DNA of 9,074 nucleotides from a bacterium (GTDB lineage: Bacteria > T1Sed10-126). Below are positions 1 through 9,074 of this stretch, in pieces. How positions within the stretch are numbered: the first letter of the stretch is position 1; the number at the start of each line of letters is the position of its first letter. The position numbers and the translations under genes are program-made. A model generated the notes under the pieces. It saw nothing but the letters and a program-made list of their open reading frames with translations, was not told the origin of the DNA and did not search any database. The DNA is taken from assembly GCA_003557545.1 (NCBI GenBank), contig PWOD01000137.1:1-9074 (forward strand), in the 5' to 3' direction.

Positions 1-342
1 GTTGCTGATCTTTACCATCATCTGGTTGAATGGACCGGTTATCAGACAAGCAGCGATACCAGACTAGAAATTTTTGTTGTAGGAGATATTTTTCTGACGG
101 CTAATTTTGAACGAGACGTGCATCAGGTGGAGTTTGCAGTGGATGGTCCTGGAATACTCTATTTGGACGGTGATACATATCTGCAGCCGGTAGAAAAATT
201 TGGTGGTGAAACGATTTTTGTCAATCTGGTTCCTGAACAGGACTGTTATACAGTGGTCGAGTGGCAGGGTTATTTTACTGGTCCCGGCGAGACAAGGCAG
301 CTAGTGGTGGAGGAAGATATATTATCAACCGGTGTGGTTAGA
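1..342 (+). repeat. Repeat array R0: end of an InlB B-like (Flg_new_2-type) array, one partial and one complete repeat
   Basis: The first repeat (1-117) is cut by the window edge and keeps only its second half, from YHHLVEWTG to TANFERD. The second (118-342, 75 residues) is an array-terminal type. It has the PGILYLDGDTY and GGET motifs, Cys at its residue 43 (244-246) in place of the usual aromatic run, W at residue 49, and ends ILSTGVVR just before the PDF that opens GLUG block G1. Both copies resemble the last two repeats of array R2 (5566-6018) more than those of R1 or R3: compare GPGETRQLVV with GSGETRQVLV, and SSDTRLEI with SSDTTVEI. R0 is therefore probably the tail of an R2-type array from a preceding composite unit, most of which lies upstream. 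Confidence 0.88.
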
Positions 343-3300
343 CCAGACTTTGTCGGCGGCGCTGGAACGGCTGGCGACCCCTTTCAAATCGCCACCTGGG
401 AACATTTGGATCATGTGAGATGTTTTCCAGGAGCGGTTTTTGAATTGATTGACGATCTGGATGAAACGACTGCAGGTTATGATCAACTGGCAAGCCCTCA
501 GGCTAATAGTGGAACCGGTTGGCAACCTCTGGATAGTCAAACTGAACCGTTTAATGGTGAATTGCACGGAAACAATAGATTGATCCAGGGGTTGAATATT
601 TCGCGGTCCAGTACTGAGGAGGTTGGGCTGTTCGGGGCAATCGATGAGGATGCCCTGGTAAAAGATTTAAGTCTGGTGAACGCTAATATTTGGGGCGGCG
701 AAAAGACCGGTGGTATTGTTGGAATCAATTGGGGTGAATTAATCAATCTGTCGGTTGACGGACAGATTGTTGGAGTAGGAGCTGATTTAGTTGGCGGGAT
801 AGTCGGCCATAATGAGGACGATGGGAAAATTAAATTTTCCAGTGTGAATGCTCGGGTTGGCGGAGAAAATAATGTGGGGGGTATAGCAGGACGGAACGAT
901 GGAGAAATCAGCAGTGTCTATTCACGGGGATCAGCGGAAGGTAATCAAAGAGTTGGTGGGATTATTGGATTGAATAGTGACGGATCTTTAACTAACTCTT
1001 ATGCTGCGGCTTCTGTAACTGCTAACAGTGATCATGGCGGTCTTGTGGGGAGTAATCTTTTTGCTGATGTTGTGGATTGTTTCTGGGATATCGATAGTAC
1101 CGGTCAGACCGATAGCTCGGGAGGTGGGCAGGGGCTGAGCAGTCAACAGATGCGGGATATTGAGACATTTCGAACAGCCGGTTGGGATATTGAAGGAAAA
1201 GCTCTCGATGAAAATGATGGTTATCCATTTCTTTCGGGTGACAGTAATCCGATCTGGTATAAACGTTTACAATTCACAGTTGATATTAGTGGTGAAGGGC
1301 AGGTGCTGGTGGATGGAGAAACATATCAGCAACCGGTGCTGGTCGATGAGGGGGAAACATTGGATTTGCAGGCTCTGCCGGATAGATACTGGTATTTTGT
1401 TAACTGGTCTGGGGCGGTTGTGTGGGTTGACACCACAGCAGCGATTTATATTGATTCCGATAGAGCGGTAACAGCAACCTTTGGCGATACGTACACTCTT
1501 GTGATTGAAGTTGAGGGAGCCGGTTCGGTATTGGTTGATGGAGAGACCTATCAGCAGCCTCTGGAGGTGAGAGGTGGGGAAACTGTTGAGTTAGAGGCAG
1601 TTCCAGAGCAGTTTCATCATTTTACCGGTTGGGCCGGAGACCTTACCGGTCAGCAGCTATTGCAGGAGTTATTTATCCATGGGGATATGAACTGTACCGC
1701 CAGTTTCGCACGGGATTCTTATACCCTGACCCTTGACACAGTGGGTGAGGGGGAGCTTTTAGTTAATGGTGAAACTTATCTTGCACCATTGGAATTGACC
1801 GGTGGAGAAACAGTTGAAATCCAGGCTCTACCAGCTCAATACTGGCAGTTGGACTCATGGATCGGAATAGTCGCAGGAACCGATACAACGGTTGATTTAT
1901 TTCTTACAGGGGATACTCACTGTACGGCCATCTTTACTGTTAAGGGGTATAATTTAACAATAAATATAATTGGAGAGGGAACAGTTTTTGTCGATGGGGA
2001 TAGTTATACCGGTTCATTAATAGTGGAGGCGGGCGAAACCTATAGTCTGTCAGCGGAGGCTGCTGATTATTGGCATTTTGTCAGTTGGTCCGGTGATCTA
2101 TCGGGAACGGATTTGAGCGGACAGATTTTTGTTGATCAAGACCTTGAATGTACAGCGATTTTTGCTCGAGACACTTATATAATCACGCTCAACAAACTGG
2201 AAGAAGGAGATCTATTTGTTAATGGAACTCTCTATACCGATCCGCTACCTGTATATGCCGGTGAAACAATAATTCTGGAGGCCGATCCGGCTCAATATTA
2301 TCATTTTGTTGAATGGACAGGTGATGTTCAAGATAGTAATAGCATAGTCGAGTTGTTTGTTGAAGCTGATAGTTTTTGTACGGCTGTTTTTCAAAGAGAT
2401 ACCCATCTTTTACAGATAGATCTGGTGGGGCAGGGTGAGGTGCTGATTGATGGAAGCTCTTATACGACCCCTCTGGAGATATCCGGGGGAGAGACGGCTC
2501 TGCTGGAAATTTCTCCTGTGACCGATTGTTACAGGTTTGACGAGTGGTTGGGAGATATAACCGGTACTGAACTGTCACATGAAATTTTATTTGACTCGGA
2601 TTTTCTGGCGACTGCGGTATTTATACCTGATTTTGCTGATGGTAAGGGTAGCCTTGCTGAACCTTTTCTGATAGAAAACTGGTATCAGCTGGCTCGGATC
2701 AGCTGTTTTAGTGATTCTAATTATTTACTAATGGCTGATCTTGCGGAAACATCGGCAGGTTACACCGAGCTTGCTTCGTCTACGGCAAATGGTGGTTCTG
2801 GCTGGGAGCCGGTAAGTCAGTTTGGTGGTTATCTGGATGGTAATAATAAAACTGTAGAGAGTCTTAATATTAACCGATCGGGAACCGATAATGTAGGTTT
2901 TTTTGGCTCAATTATCAGCGGTGGTAAAGTGGAAAATTTATCACTTTATGAAGTCGACATATCCGGTGGGGATAAAACGGGGGGATTGGCTGGAGAAAAT
3001 GCCGGCGAACTGTCTAATGTTACAGTTAGCGGAGCCGTGGAAGGTGTGGATGATGTGGGCGGGGTGGTGGGGGATAATAGTGGAGAAATCTCATCAAGTT
3101 CATCGGCTGTTACTGTTATTGGAGTCCGTCGGGTCGGGGGAATTTTTGGAAAGAATACTGGAGCCGGCAGGGACCTGTATGCTCGTGGTAATGTTACAGG
3201 TGAGATGGGGGTAGGAGGTCTTGCAGGATTGCATGAGGGGTTGATTGAACGTAGTTATTCGACCGGACAGGTAGCAGGCACCGACCTGGTTGGCGGTCTG

Positions 3301-6300
3301 ATCGGAGTTACCATCGGGGGGACGGTGGAGAGTAGTTTTTGGGATACTGAGAGTTCTCAGCAGCTGGAGAGCGATGGTGGTGAACCCAAAGACAGTCACC
3401 AGTTAAAGGATATCAGTACTTTTGAACAGGCTGGCTGGTCGATTGAAAGCAGTGGAATCGAACTCAATGATGGCTATCCCTTTCTATCAGGAGAAACCTC
3501 TCCAGTCTGGTTGAAAAGCCTTTACATAACGGTTGAAGTTGAGGGTGAAGGGACAGTTTTGATCGATGGAGAAACTTATCTTGAGCCGGTTGTAGTTTCA
3601 CCCGGTGTACCGGTGGAATTCACTGCGGTTCCCCAGGAGTTCTGGAGTTTTCAGGGCTGGGGTGGAGCTTTAGCCGGGGGAGATACGGTTGTAGTTGATA
3701 GTTTCAGTGCTGATACTATGATAACTGCTACTTTTAATGATACCTATTCATTAGAGATTTTGATTGATGGTGCTGGCGAGGTTCTGGTCGACGGGGAGAC
3801 CTATCAACAGTCGTTGGAGGTTACCGGGGGTGAAACTATAGTGCTTCAGGCCATTCCTGATCAGTTCTGGTATTTTGAAGGGTGGTCGGGAGAGATTAAT
3901 AGCGGTGATACTGAGATTTATCTACAGATAGTATCTGACCATATATTAACTGCCAGTTTTTCACGTGAAATGAATAGTCTTACGGTCGGTATCGTGGGTG
4001 AAGGGACGGTATTGGTCGATGGCGAGACTTATCAGGAACCGGTTGAGATTATTCGTGGAGAGACAGTATTAGTTGAAACAGTTGCTGCTCAATACTGGGA
4101 GCTTTCAAACTGGGAGGGGGATTTAACTTCGTCTGAAACGTCGGTTGAAATATTGATGCTGGAGGATCAAGCCGTCACGGCAATTTTTCAGCCGATTTAC
4201 TACAGTTTAACCGTGGGAATCATTGGTGAAGGAACGGTTCTGGTAGCGGGTGAGACTTATCAGGGAACGGTGCAACTGCAAGCTGGTGAGACCTACAGCC
4301 TGGAGGCTGAACCGGAGCTTTTTTATCAGTTTAAAGAATGGTCTGGTGATCTCACCGGGACCAGCAGTCAGAACTATCTGTTTCTCGATGAAGACCGGCA
4401 TTGTACGGCTGAATTTGAGAGAAAGCAGTATCTGTTGACGATAGAACAGCAGGGTGAAGGGCAGATATATCTGGAGGGGGATAGTTATTCATCACCGGTT
4501 TATCTGCCAGCCGGTGAGACCTATACGCTGCGGGCTGAAGCTGACCTGTATTATCATTTTTCCAGCTGGGAGGGCGCAGTTTCAGGAACCGATACAGAAG
4601 TTGAACTATTTCTTCAAGCAGATCAGATATGTACAGCAATTTTTCGACGTGATACCTTTCTATTAATCATTGATCTGCTGGTCGAAGGAACGGTTTTAGT
4701 TGATGGTGATAGCTATCTGGCACCGCTTGAATTGCCAGCCGGGGAAACGGTGACTCTGACCGCTGTTCCTGAAAAGTATTCTCAGTTTGTTGACTGGCAG
4801 GGTGATCTTTCCGGTTCTGACACAGAAGTCGAACTATTCATTGAAACAACCAAAAATTGTACCGCTCTATTTGAACGGAAACAACATATGGTGGTGATTG
4901 AGACAGTTGGTGAAGGGACTATATTTGTTGATGGTGAGACTTATTTAACTCCTGTTACCGTAACAGCTGGTGAAACTGTGGAGGTAATGGCTAAAGCAGC
5001 TGAGTACTGGCATTTTTCAGACTGGCAGGGTGATCTGACCGGCTCTAACGGAGAACGTCAGCTATTTGTTGATGCTGACAAACTCTGTACAGCTATTTTC
5101 CAGCAGGATAGTTACAGTTTAACTGTTGATATTATTGGGGAAGGGACTGTTCTGGTGGATGGTGAAACTTATTATGGACCACTGGATCTGGGCGCCGGTG
5201 AGACTGTGTCGCTACAGGCTCAGCCCGCCGATTTTTGGTTGTTTGACAGTTGGACAGGAGATGTGACCGGGACTCAGTTAACGGTTGATCTGTTCGTTGA
5301 TGGAGACAAACAATGTACGGCAATTATGGTTCGTGATGGACATACAGTGGACGTTACTATTGAGGGGCAGGGGACAGTGCTGGTGGATGGGGATAGTTAT
5401 CAATCGCCGGTCACGGTGACAGCCGGTGATACGGTCGAGCTTATTCCAATTGCTGATTCTTACTATCATTTTGTCGAATGGCAGGGAGATTTGACCGGTG
5501 CCACAGAAACGCAGCAGTTATTTGTTGATGAGGATAAATCTGTTACCGCGGTTTTTCAACGAGATACCCATCTGATAACTATTGAGCAGATCGGGCAAGG
5601 AGCCATCGAGGTTGGTGGAGTTGTTTACACGGAACCGGTGGAGGCTATTGCAGGTGAGACAATCTCACTGGCTGCTTTCCCCGCCCAGTACTGGCATTTT
5701 ATGGAATGGACGGGAGATTTAATTTCGTCAGATACAACTGTAGAGATATTAATTGAAGACGCGCTGTTGGTTGATGCTATTTTTCAGAGAGACACCCATA
5801 CTATTCAACTGGCTGTCGAGGGTGTGGGTGATATTCTTGTGGATGGTGAGACCTATGTTCAGCCACTGGTTCGGTTTGGTGGTGAGACAGTACTGTTTGA
5901 AGCGCTACCGGGGGAGTTCTGCTATACGGTTACGGAATGGCTTGGTGATTTGACCGGGAGCGGGGAAACCCGTCAGGTTCTGGTCGACGATGATATATTT
6001 TCCACTGCTGTTATTGGCCCGGATTTTCTGGCGGGCGAAGGAACCGCCGCCGAACCATTTGAACTGGCAGATTGGTCACAGCTACACAATGTTCGATGTT
6101 TTCTTGACGCAAATTTTCTCCTGGTAAATGATCTTGATCAAAATAGTTATGGTTATTCAGAGTTCGCCGGTGCTACCGCCGATGGCGGTGCAGGCTGGCA
6201 GCCGCTGGGTCAATCAGGGAACCGGTTTAGCGGTGGTTTTGATGGTGGTGGAAGGGTTATTCAAGATTTGCATATAGATCGTCCCGGCTCTGAAAATGTC

Positions 6301-9074
6301 GGACTGTTTGGCAAGCTTGACCAGTCGGGAAGTATAAGTTCTTTAAAGCTTACAGAGTTGCAGATATCCGGTGCCAACAATACCGGGGGACTGGTTGGAT
6401 ATAATTTCGGTGAGATCAATTTTATCGAATTGACCGGCAATATTCAGGGTGATCGCCGGGTGGGTGGCTTGGTCGGGCGTAATGAAGGTCAGGTGACTGC
6501 TTCATCAGCCTCTGGCACGGTTGTTGGAAATCAGCGGGTTGGTGGTGCTATTGGTCTAAATGATGGAGATTTAACTGATCTGTATTCACTGGCTGCTGTT
6601 TCTGGAAATCAGGGAGTAGGAGGACTGGTGGGTTACAATTACGATGGACTTCTTACCAATGGTTATGCTGCCGGGCCGGTTTCCGGGGACTTTTTACTCG
6701 GGGGTCTGGTTGGGACAGAGTTATATGGGGAGGTTACAACCAGTTTTTGGGATGTTGATAGTACCGGTCAATCAGAAAGCGTTGGTGGTGAGGGTTTGAC
6801 CGGCGATCAGATGCGGGATATTGAGAATTTTCGGGCTGCCGGTTGGGATATTCGTGGTAAAGCGCTTGATCAAAATGATGGTTATCCATTTCTTTCCGGT
6901 GACAGCCAGCCGATCTGGCACAAACGTCTTCAGCTATCAGTTGAGATAAACGGCCAGGGTCAGTTGCTGGCCGAGGGTGATAGTGTCCAGCAGGTAGTAT
7001 TGTTCGATGAGGGTGAAACTGTGCAGCTGGAGGCAGTGGCAGATCCTTACTGGTATTTTGTCAACTGGGAGGGTGCTATTGATGGAACTGATACAGAGGT
7101 CGAAATTTCAATTGAATCAGATACTAATCTAACTGTTAACTTCGACAATCAATATATGCTGGTTGTTGGAACCGACGGGGCCGGGGAGGTGTTGGTAGAG
7201 GGGGATAGTTATCAGCAGCCAGTGGAGGTTTATGGCGGCGAGACGGTCCAGTTGACTGCCGTGCCCCAGCAGTTTCACCATTTTACCGGCTGGAGCGGTG
7301 ATCTCAGCGGCCAGCAGATATCGGCCGAGCTGTTTATTGAGGGAGATATGAACTGCACTGCCAGCTTCGACCGGGATTCTTATACTCTTACGCTGGATAA
7401 AGTTGGGCAGGGCCAACTGCTGGTTAATGGTGAAACCTATCTTGAGCCCCTGGAACTGCCCGGGGGAGAAACTGTTCTGCTTGAGGCTCAGCCGGAGCAG
7501 TTCTGGAAATTTTCTGAATGGAGCGGTGCCTTGAGTGAAGTTGACACCACCGTTGAGCTATTTATGGCTGATGATAGGCTGGCCACCGCGATTTTTTCTC
7601 GGACTGATAATCTTTTGACGGTCAATCTGGTCGGCGAGGGTGAGGTTCTTGTAAATGGAGAAACATATCTACAGCCCTTAACTGTAACAGCCGGAGAAAC
7701 ATATAGTTTGACAGCAGTTGCTGATCAATACTGGCATTTTGTCGAATGGTCGGGTGATTTAACCGGAACTTCTCTGAACAATGAAATTTTCATTGATGGC
7801 GACCGTGAATGTACTGCTTTCTTTCGCCGTGATACTTATATTCTGACTGTAGATACAGTTGAGCAGGGTGAAATATTGGTGGATGGTCAGTCTTATACAG
7901 AACCTCTGGTGGTATTTGCCGGGGAAACAGTGACTCTGGAGGCCCTGCCTGCTCAGCATTATCATTTTGTTGAATGGACCGGCGCGGCTTTTGGGACGGC
8001 CACTGAGTTTGAGCTATTTGTGCTGCAGGACAGCCTTTGTACCGCAGTTTTTCAACGGGATACCCATACGCTACAGCTGGCGGTGGAAGGGGATGGGGAG
8101 GTTCTGGTTGACGGAATTTCTTATACTACCCCCTTGATTTTTCAGGGGGGAGAAACGGCATTGCTGGCGACTCTTCCAGAGGATGATTGTTTTGCCTTCG
8201 GTGAATGGCGGGGTGATCTTACCGGTGATCTGGCCACTCGGGAGATTTTATTTTCGGATGATATTTTTGCTACAGCAGTTTTTGTTCCGGGATTTGCCGG
8301 GGGCCAGGGAGTTAGTTCGGCTCCCTTTATAGTTGAGGATTGGGTGCAGCTGGCCCGAATAAGTTGTTTCCCAGATTCCAGCTATATTTTAGCCGGTGAC
8401 TTGACGGTAGACAGTGACGGATATAGTGAATTGGCATCAAATACGGCCAATGGTGGTCTGGGCTGGGAGCCGCTGGAGCGATTTGGCGGGGTGTTGGATG
8501 GGCAGGGACACAGGCTGGAGAATCTGGTAATCTCCCGGCCGACAGAAAATCAGGTGGCGATGATTTCTTTGCTTGATAACGGGCGGGTGGAGAATCTGAG
8601 AGTTATTAATATAGAGGTGGAAGGCAATGATGAATCGGCCGGTCTTATTGCCCGTAACGAGGGTGAAATTTTTAATGTTGGTGTTACCGGTCTGGTTGAA
8701 GGACATGATGATGTAGGAGCAGTTACAGGAGGAAATTATGGTGTTGTTGGTCGTTCTTATGCTGAAGCAAATATTTCCGGTCGCCGGAGAATTGGGGGGT
8801 TGATCGGGAAAAATCGAGAGGATGTGACTGATGTCTATGCCCGGGGGCAGGTTTTTGGTGATAGGGGAGTTGGGGGGTTAGTAGGGGATAATGACGAAGG
8901 ATATGTGGGTAACGCTTATGCCGCAGCCGAGGTGACGGCGACTAATACACCGGTGGGTGGATTGATTGGTGGTGGTCCATTCGGGGGAGTTGACAATAGT
9001 TTTTGGGATGTTGAAAAATCAACCCAGAACGAAAGTGAGGGTGGGGAGCCACGTACGACGGAAGAACTCAAAAA
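1..9074 (+). CDS. Interior of a giant modular surface/secreted protein (GLUG beta-helix blocks alternating with InlB B-like repeat arrays); both ends outside the window
   Basis: Frame 1 is open for 3,024 codons with no in-frame TAA, TAG or TGA. The first residues already lie inside a repeat and the last inside a GLUG C-cap, so start, signal peptide, anchor and stop are not visible. Modules in order (window residues): repeat array R0 1-114, GLUG G1 115-422, R1 423-875, G2 876-1173, R2 1174-2006, G3 2007-2309, R3 2310-2762, G4 2763-3024. It is strongly acidic: single repeats carry about 12-13 Asp+Glu against about 1 Lys+Arg. I found no transmembrane stretch, coiled coil or enzyme motif. Both domain families are known mainly from bacterial surface or secreted proteins, so an extracellular stalk, adhesin or fibre is the likely role; this is inference. 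The phylum cannot be told. I am sure of the frame and module structure but not of the function. Confidence 0.96.
343..1266 (+). other. GLUG-motif beta-helix block G1 (308 residues, type A), encoded within the giant CDS
   Basis: The N-cap runs from PDFVGGAGTAGDPFQIATW through a Cys at block residue 27 (421-423) to GWQPLD, FNGELHGNN and LNISRS. This matches the usual opening of GLUG proteins (G.GT..DPY.I ... GW.P.G ... F.G..DG). Six rungs begin near 622, 706, 790, 874, 952 and 1033 (VGLFG, TGGIVGIN, VGGIVGHN, VGGIAGRN, VGGIIGLN, HGGLVGSN), 26-28 residues apart, each followed by a short strand such as SVYSRGSA or NSYAAASV. The C-cap (1081-1266) starts FWDIDSTGQ and continues through GGGQGLSSQQM, AGWDI and DGYPFLSGD to a final W. 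G1 alone has a Cys just before the FWD motif (1078-1080). GLUG repeats are expected to stack as a solenoid, probably binding or spacing surface modules; no catalytic residues are evident. G1 is closest to G3. Confidence 0.9.
1267..2625 (+). repeat. Repeat array R1: six InlB B-like (Flg_new_2-type) repeats, type A
   Basis: Repeats are 1267-1488, 1489-1716, 1717-1944, 1945-2172, 2173-2400 and 2401-2625: one of 74 residues, four of exactly 76, one of 75. A typical copy (1489-1716) has YTL at residues 2-4, GAGSVLVDGETY near 10-21, GGET at 29-32, W at 48, GDLTG at 50-54 and CTASF at 69-73. The first repeat has no Cys and reads VTATF at the end. The four internal copies all carry Cys69. The last loses it (LATAVF), gains one residue before the Trp and has Cys43 (2527-2529). 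The third copy reads WIGI where WSGD is usual. Each repeat probably folds as a small beta-domain, making the array a rod. It matches array R3 position by position and in total length. Confidence 0.9.
2626..3519 (+). other. GLUG-motif beta-helix block G2 (298 residues, type B), encoded within the giant CDS
   Basis: It opens with PDFADGKGSLAEPFLIENW, and Cys at block residue 27 (2704-2706) lies in ISCFSDSNYLL. GYTELASSTANGG, GWEPVSQFGG and LDGNNKTVESL complete the N-cap. Rungs begin near 2893, 2977, 3055, 3133, 3211 and 3289 (VGFFG, TGGLAGEN, VGGVVGDN, VGGIFGKN, VGGLAGLH, VGGLIGVT), mostly 26 residues apart. The C-cap begins SFWDTESSQQ at 3334 and has the type-B sequence GGEPKDSHQLKD instead of the GLSSQQMRD seen in G1, then AGWSI, DGYPFLSGE and a final W. 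Residues shared with G4 (ISCF, ELAS.TANGG.GWEP, GGEP) place it in a different subtype from G1 and G3. The role is as for the other GLUG blocks: structural or ligand-binding, not assignable further. Confidence 0.9.
3520..6018 (+). repeat. Repeat array R2: eleven InlB B-like (Flg_new_2-type) repeats, type B, the longest array
   Basis: Repeat starts are 3520, 3742, 3970, 4198, 4426, 4654, 4882, 5110, 5338, 5566 and 5794; the last ends at 6018. Lengths are 74 residues, then nine of exactly 76, then 75, so nine internal copies show no net length change. Cys69 (CTA motif) is present only in the five middle repeats (4th to 8th) and is replaced by Val, Leu or Ile elsewhere. The last copy has Cys43 (5920-5922) and a one-residue insertion before Trp. 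Oddities: the first copy lacks GET (PGVPVEF instead), the ninth has GDT, the eighth ends CTAIM where Phe is usual, and the tenth reads VDAIF. The second copy shares GAGEVLVDGETYQQ with the second copies of R1 and R3. The array is five repeats longer than R1 or R3, suggesting internal expansion. Confidence 0.9.
6019..6927 (+). other. GLUG-motif beta-helix block G3 (303 residues, type A), encoded within the giant CDS
   Basis: The N-cap begins PDFLAGEGTAAEPFELADW with Cys at block residue 27 (6097-6099) in HNVRCFLDANFLL, then GWQPLGQSGNRFSGGFDGGG. Rungs start near 6298, 6382, 6460, 6538, 6616 and 6697 (VGLFGKL, TGGLVGYN, VGGLVGRN, VGGAIGLN, VGGLVGYN, LGGLVGTE). The C-cap (from 6745) reads FWDVDSTGQSESVGGEGL, then GDQMRDIENF, AGWDI and DGYPFLSGDS. 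It is the counterpart of G1 in the second composite unit: VRCF, GWQPL, STGQ, QMRDIE, AGWDI and GYPFLSGDS are shared, and DNA identity is high in the C-cap (for example 25 identical bases at 6872-6896 and 1211-1235). It is five residues shorter than G1. Several rungs fit the GLUG consensus well, making it a good reference block. Confidence 0.9.
6928..8286 (+). repeat. Repeat array R3: six InlB B-like (Flg_new_2-type) repeats, type A
   Basis: Repeats are 6928-7149, 7150-7377, 7378-7605, 7606-7833, 7834-8061 and 8062-8286, with lengths 74, 76, 76, 76, 76 and 75 residues, identical to R1. Each copy best matches the copy at the same position in R1. Second: QFHHFTGW and GDMNCTASF in both. Third: DSYTLTLD and LLVNGETYL. 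Fourth: AGETYSL and YWHFV. Fifth: HFVEWTG and CTAVFQRDTH. Sixth: SYTTPL and GGETALL. Cys69 is kept in the second, fourth and fifth copies but lost in the third (ATAIF). The terminal copy has Cys43 (8188-8190). The first copy departs most from consensus (EGDSVQQVV lacks the Tyr and Pro). By eye it is richer in G and C than R1. Confidence 0.9.
8287..9074 (+). other. GLUG-motif beta-helix block G4 (type B, C-cap cut by the window edge), encoded within the giant CDS
   Basis: It opens PGFAGGQGVSSAPFIVEDW with Cys at block residue 27 (8365-8367) in ISCFPDSSYIL, then YSELASNTANGG, GWEPLERFGG and LDGQGHRLENL. Rungs begin near 8554, 8635, 8713, 8791, 8869 and 8953. The first three are degenerate (VAMISLL, SAGLIARN, VGAVTGGN), while the last three fit GLUG well (IGGLIGKN, VGGLVGDN, VGGLIGGG). 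The C-cap starts SFWDVEKS at 8998 and reaches the type-B GGEP sequence before the window ends. Position and sequence make it the counterpart of G2. By analogy, about 37 more residues of cap with GYPFLSG should follow, then a repeat array beginning with a Cys-free 74-residue copy; that continuation is a prediction. Confidence 0.88.

Follow-up and report, generated by a model that had tools for sequence, protein, structure and literature searches.

GLUG-containing parallel beta-helices are known from BACOVA_03286 of Bacteroides ovatus and from the IgA1 proteases (3n6z, 6xja, 7uvk), and the window, as we call the whole 9,074-nucleotide stretch of DNA analysed here, encodes blocks of the same fold class. 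In a structure comparison, a GLUG block of the window aligned with 3n6z with a Z score of 32.2 over 283 residues (rmsd 2.9) and with the IgA1 proteases with Z scores of 22-26, against at most 15 for unrelated beta-helices. A fold shared with IgA1 proteases is no evidence for protease function here, and no Pfam match to a protease was found above cut-off in the window protein. Unlike the arrangement proposed below for the window protein, neither 3n6z nor the IgA1 proteases have an array stapled to their cap in the literature searched. Inter-domain disulfides are a known kind of bond. An engineered one, linking the beta-roll repeat domain of serralysin to its neighbour, was reported to raise stability (PMC4574703). 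The serralysin construct resembles the window protein in that paired cysteines of an exported bacterial protein link repeats to the adjoining domain; it differs in that the serralysin pair is engineered and sits in other folds, whereas the pair of the window is natural and recurs at many junctions. We found no description of recurrent all-or-none disulfides at array-to-beta-helix joints in the open-access literature, subscription papers being outside the scope of the search, and no open-access literature that treats GLUG together with disulfides and repeats; GLUG and the InlB B-repeat are mentioned together in one open-access paper.

Within a 2.15-Mb genome of 239 contigs and 91.9% completeness, the window makes up contig C92. 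It consists of a single open frame in which arrays of divergent InlB B-repeats (PF18998, about 76 residues per repeat) alternate with GLUG blocks (PF07581, about 300 residues each), as follows:

1-9072, + strand: single open frame of 3,024 amino acids with no start and no stop codon, open at both ends
115-345, + strand: terminal repeat of junction 1 (profile positions 1-77), its array cut by the contig start
244-246, + strand: Cys codon (TGT) of the junction 1 terminal repeat
355-1260, + strand: GLUG block 1 (PF07581 by Pfam; fold class by structure comparison)
421-423, + strand: Cys codon (TGT) of the junction 1 GLUG N-cap
1273-2397, + strand: internal-repeat array with unpaired Cys (CTAxF) and no junction Cys
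2398-2628, + strand: terminal repeat of junction 2 (local profile)
2527-2529, + strand: Cys codon (TGT) of the junction 2 terminal repeat
2638-3519, + strand: GLUG block 2 (Pfam)
2704-2706, + strand: Cys codon (TGT) of the junction 2 GLUG N-cap
3526-5790, + strand: internal-repeat array (PF18998, 159 bits over 4309-5790)
5791-6021, + strand: terminal repeat of junction 3 (local profile; AlphaFold2 model)
5920-5922, + strand: Cys codon (TGC) of the junction 3 terminal repeat, model residue 120, immediately N-terminal of strand 121-128
6031-6930, + strand: GLUG block 3 (Pfam), a parallel beta-helix in the model
6097-6099, + strand: Cys codon (TGT) of the junction 3 GLUG N-cap, model residue 179, final residue of helix 171-179
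6931-8058, + strand: internal-repeat array (local profile)
8059-8289, + strand: terminal repeat of junction 4 (local profile)
8188-8190, + strand: Cys codon (TGT) of the junction 4 terminal repeat
8299-9072, + strand: GLUG block 4, truncated where the contig ends
8365-8367, + strand: Cys codon (TGT) of the junction 4 GLUG N-cap

GLUG blocks 1, 2 and 3 passed the PF07581 gathering score of 20.5 with 49.1, 25.4 and 45.6 bits respectively, and the truncated block 4 scored 19.8 bits, slightly below this cut-off. The internal repeats matched PF18998 (Flg_new_2) strongly, with 159 bits in 7 stretches for a gathering score of 23.6. The terminal repeats differ from the norm of this family in that a Cys replaces a conserved Tyr/Phe six residues ahead of a Trp. 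A Pfam search with the junction pieces returned nothing for PF18998 at E<=1, so that the terminal repeat is not called alone; its proposed homology to the internal repeats comes from the local profile.

An earlier, sequence-only reading of the window had proposed that every array-to-GLUG junction carries one Cys in the last repeat and one in the GLUG block at a fixed distance, and that the first is limited to terminal repeats. All eight Cys codons were found where this reading had placed them (starting at 244, 421, 2527, 2704, 5920, 6097, 8188 and 8365), the distance within pairs is exactly 177 nt (59 residues) at all four junctions, and the junction-column Cys is absent from the 20 scored internal repeats of the window. 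Another Cys lies close to the repeat end (CTAxF) in 12 of these 20 repeats (at 1693, 1921, 2149, 2377; 4402, 4630, 4858, 5086, 5314; 7354, 7810 and 8038), frequently in successive repeats with a period of 228 nt.

As four related junctions in a single protein make a small sample, we built a profile from the four junctions of the window and ran it over 32 stretches of the same genome. The paralogue search of the genome gave 246 matches, and the profile picked out 58 junctions between a repeat and a GLUG block, 283 other repeats and 23 matches to GLUG alone. Both Cys are present at 20 of the 58 junctions and neither at 38, and no junction has a single one. A Cys kept without its partner, which the sequence-only reading had named, if frequent, as evidence against its proposal, was thus found at these columns in none of the 58 junctions here and in none of 16 elsewhere; since the 38 unpaired junctions were recovered by a profile seeded with paired ones, mixed junctions should not have escaped. 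The pair is present at every junction of the contig but at 20/58 junctions genome-wide, and restriction of the junction-column Cys to terminal repeats, true of the window, gives way genome-wide to 2 exceptions among the 283 other repeats. One exception (L003, DDCYRF) is truncated where its contig ends; the second is an internal repeat with its own local HCYFDCW pair. This last repeat (L025:11208-11423) lies immediately ahead of a paired junction. The partner Cys was found in one GLUG-only block (L028), whose preceding repeat is missing because the block begins at the extreme edge of contig C125. Contig C5 ends within the Cys-bearing repeat (L003:3307-3483) and C125 begins just before the Cys-bearing GLUG cap (L028:6-380); the two contigs may be neighbours and together hold a 21st pair. 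None of the 18 complete array ends of the genome that lack a following GLUG block has the junction Cys. The pair is commoner at the ends of longer arrays (Mann-Whitney p = 0.0002, uncorrected for relatedness). The census makes the finding narrower, with 20 of 58 junctions, yet much stronger, with no mixed junction, and as most junctions (38/58) do without the pair, it is dispensable for joining the domains.

In the comparison with other lineages, in which the phylum was represented by two genomes, neither Cys was found at these columns in 16 junctions outside this genome (sister genus, Thermoplasmata, Dehalococcoidia and Bacteroidota). We rejected the idea that proteins with GLUG and InlB repeats carry the pair in general, as all other lineages sampled lack it. 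One sister-genus junction (G001:C28, L084:1935-2411) has a Cys on either side of the boundary at shifted profile columns, 46/106 instead of 42/101; this single case is a lead, and may represent an independent, shifted staple or chance. The aligned repeat-GLUG junction parts of L085 (G001:C27, sister genus) and L178 (G071:C66, Thermoplasmata) look identical, which suggests a mis-binned contig or a recent transfer.

To follow the history of the pair, a junction tree was computed with both Cys columns left out; its backbone is weakly supported, with 9 of 55 branches starred. The paired/unpaired label required 3 changes on this tree (3-5 across bootstraps) against a mean of 16.8 for shuffled labels. 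By parsimony on this weakly supported tree, the label is read as one gain and two losses, with both columns hit each time: Ala/Tyr in L025:3807-4382, and Ala or Val/Gly in the trio L033, L034 and L035. Had the second column changed independently, it would have hit those three branches with a probability of about 3e-7, a rough figure given the weak backbone. The 20 paired copies are paralogues of one genome, probably with a single origin. This clustering, and the fact that all paired junctions come from one genome, is what one would expect if the repeat-plus-GLUG junction had simply been copied as a module, with both Cys inherited unbonded from one ancestor. We consider such descent without a bond improbable: the paired lineages add up to about 17.8 substitutions per site, over which two unselected columns would not both remain Cys, the losses strike both sites, and spacing is frozen in the paired junctions alone. 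Over these lineages 18 columns are invariant, including both Cys along with structural Gly, Trp, Tyr, Pro and Leu. Common descent accounts for the distribution of the pair, but not for the absence of single-Cys losses.

The Cys-Cys spacing is 59 residues in 20/20 paired junctions. We also measured the distance between W50 and L98, two landmarks that all junctions share: it is 48 throughout the 20 paired junctions, and unpaired ones show 44, 47, 48, 49, 50, 51 or 52. Length change is therefore tolerated only where the pair is absent, which is what a bond across the linker would lead one to expect. Cys makes up 0.27% of the residues across these ORFs, and the coincidence of 20 with 20 among 58 junctions has a probability of 5e-16 under the assumption of independent copies, which these are not. 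A chance origin of the pair was ruled out by this coincidence together with the spacing.

The two Cys columns ranked first among 7,668 repeat-GLUG column pairs by corrected mutual information (0.55, the next pair reaching 0.33). Direct-coupling analysis was done twice, the second time on internal repeats only; within repeats it recovered an antiparallel ladder between strands 5 and 7 (column sums 123-125) as well as the strand 1-2 hairpin, the positive control. Extrapolating this ladder, the Cys column, with which strand 5 begins, would adjoin columns ~78-80, where the chain leaves towards the GLUG block. We modelled window positions 5563-6930 with AlphaFold2 (mean pLDDT 94.3, pTM 0.86). As GLUG residues make up only about 64% of the modelled chain, the definition of pTM suggests that the repeats must be confidently placed relative to the GLUG block. 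In the model, the second Cys ends a helix just ahead of the beta-helix, and the alignment with 3n6z begins at model residue 117, beside the first Cys, which hints that the loop of the first Cys sits at the beta-helix cap. The model is thus confident on the arrangement of the domains, yet most junctions manage without the pair. A model of the Cys-free junction L090 (Dehalococcoidia) had poorly folded repeats (pLDDT 81, pTM 0.66) and has no bearing on whether rigidity requires the staple.

Covarying thiol pairs can also serve as metal ligands, and two fixed Cys at an interface could bind a metal or cofactor at the domain joint. We found no column of His, Cys, Asp or Glu that sets the paired junctions apart from the unpaired, and the acidic near-invariants of the paired set are E32, D68 and D116 only. 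A metal site would hence have no ligands beyond the two Cys, which makes a poor site, and a DsbA-type oxidoreductase is exported; we dismissed the metal site for want of a co-varying ligand, and regard metal or cofactor binding as highly improbable. The exported DsbA-type thioredoxin was identified in the genome by a match to PF13462 (Thioredoxin_4/DSBA, 1.2e-28) with a CFFC (CxxC) motif; VKOR and DsbB were not found in this 91.9% complete genome. The N-terminus of the window protein lies off the contig and export signals were read in sister ORFs only, of which the intact ones have apparent N-terminal signal peptides, as judged by eye, followed directly by a Cys-free GLUG block. Matches of C-terminal tails to CHU_C, FlgD_ig and Por_Secre_tail all fell below cut-offs. 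The tails of L027:6554-7153 and L024:5393-5992 resemble FlgD-Ig and type IX sorting domains, likewise below cut-offs.

Giant secreted proteins with extra unpaired Cys could also use their thiols to cross-link separate molecules into a fibre or mat instead of bonding within one chain, and such Cys do exist, at the repeat end (column 71) of 44 of the 283 internal repeats genome-wide. None of 57 terminal repeats has a column-71 Cys, however, and the strict spacing, the coupled loss and the location of both junction Cys at a common inter-domain pole fit partners in one chain; we judge links between molecules to be very improbable. The repeat-end Cys of internal repeats are probably buried.

The best-supported reading, which we hold to be likely, is that the two Cys form an inter-domain disulfide that arose in this lineage and has since been retained or lost whole. 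The sequence-only reading had also preferred a disulfide, with a metal site as the less likely option, and its preference is supported by the spacing in 20/20 junctions, the joint losses, the covariation, the location at the pole and the lack of further ligands; its proposal that the pair acts as a rigid lock stays an inferred function. The first Cys would begin strand five of the last InlB-B-type repeat, at the exit pole of the chain, and the second would close the short helix capping the GLUG beta-helix on its N-terminal side. Once the protein is exported, and aided by the DsbA-type thioredoxin, the bond would form and tie the last repeat to the beta-helix cap, which would set both the length of the linker and the orientation of the domains where arrays, mostly long ones, come to an end. 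By analogy with the stability gain in serralysin, a role in mechanical strength or protease resistance is plausible.

Joints between unlike domains of tandem-repeat surface proteins must carry force and withstand proteases, and are seldom visible in sequence. With dozens of natural paired and unpaired joints in one genome, what a covalent staple costs and what it brings could be measured directly on natural variants, and the Cys pair flags the repeat that ends an array, which is useful for annotation and protein design. A broader reading, which we hold to be rather unlikely, is that the disulfide is a portable staple of fixed length which evolved where arrays of giant surface proteins meet a beta-helix, and which is retained or dropped whole while arrays grow, with the G001:C28 pair as an independent invention. 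If this were true, selection would repeatedly demand a covalent lock at the boundary between array and beta-helix.
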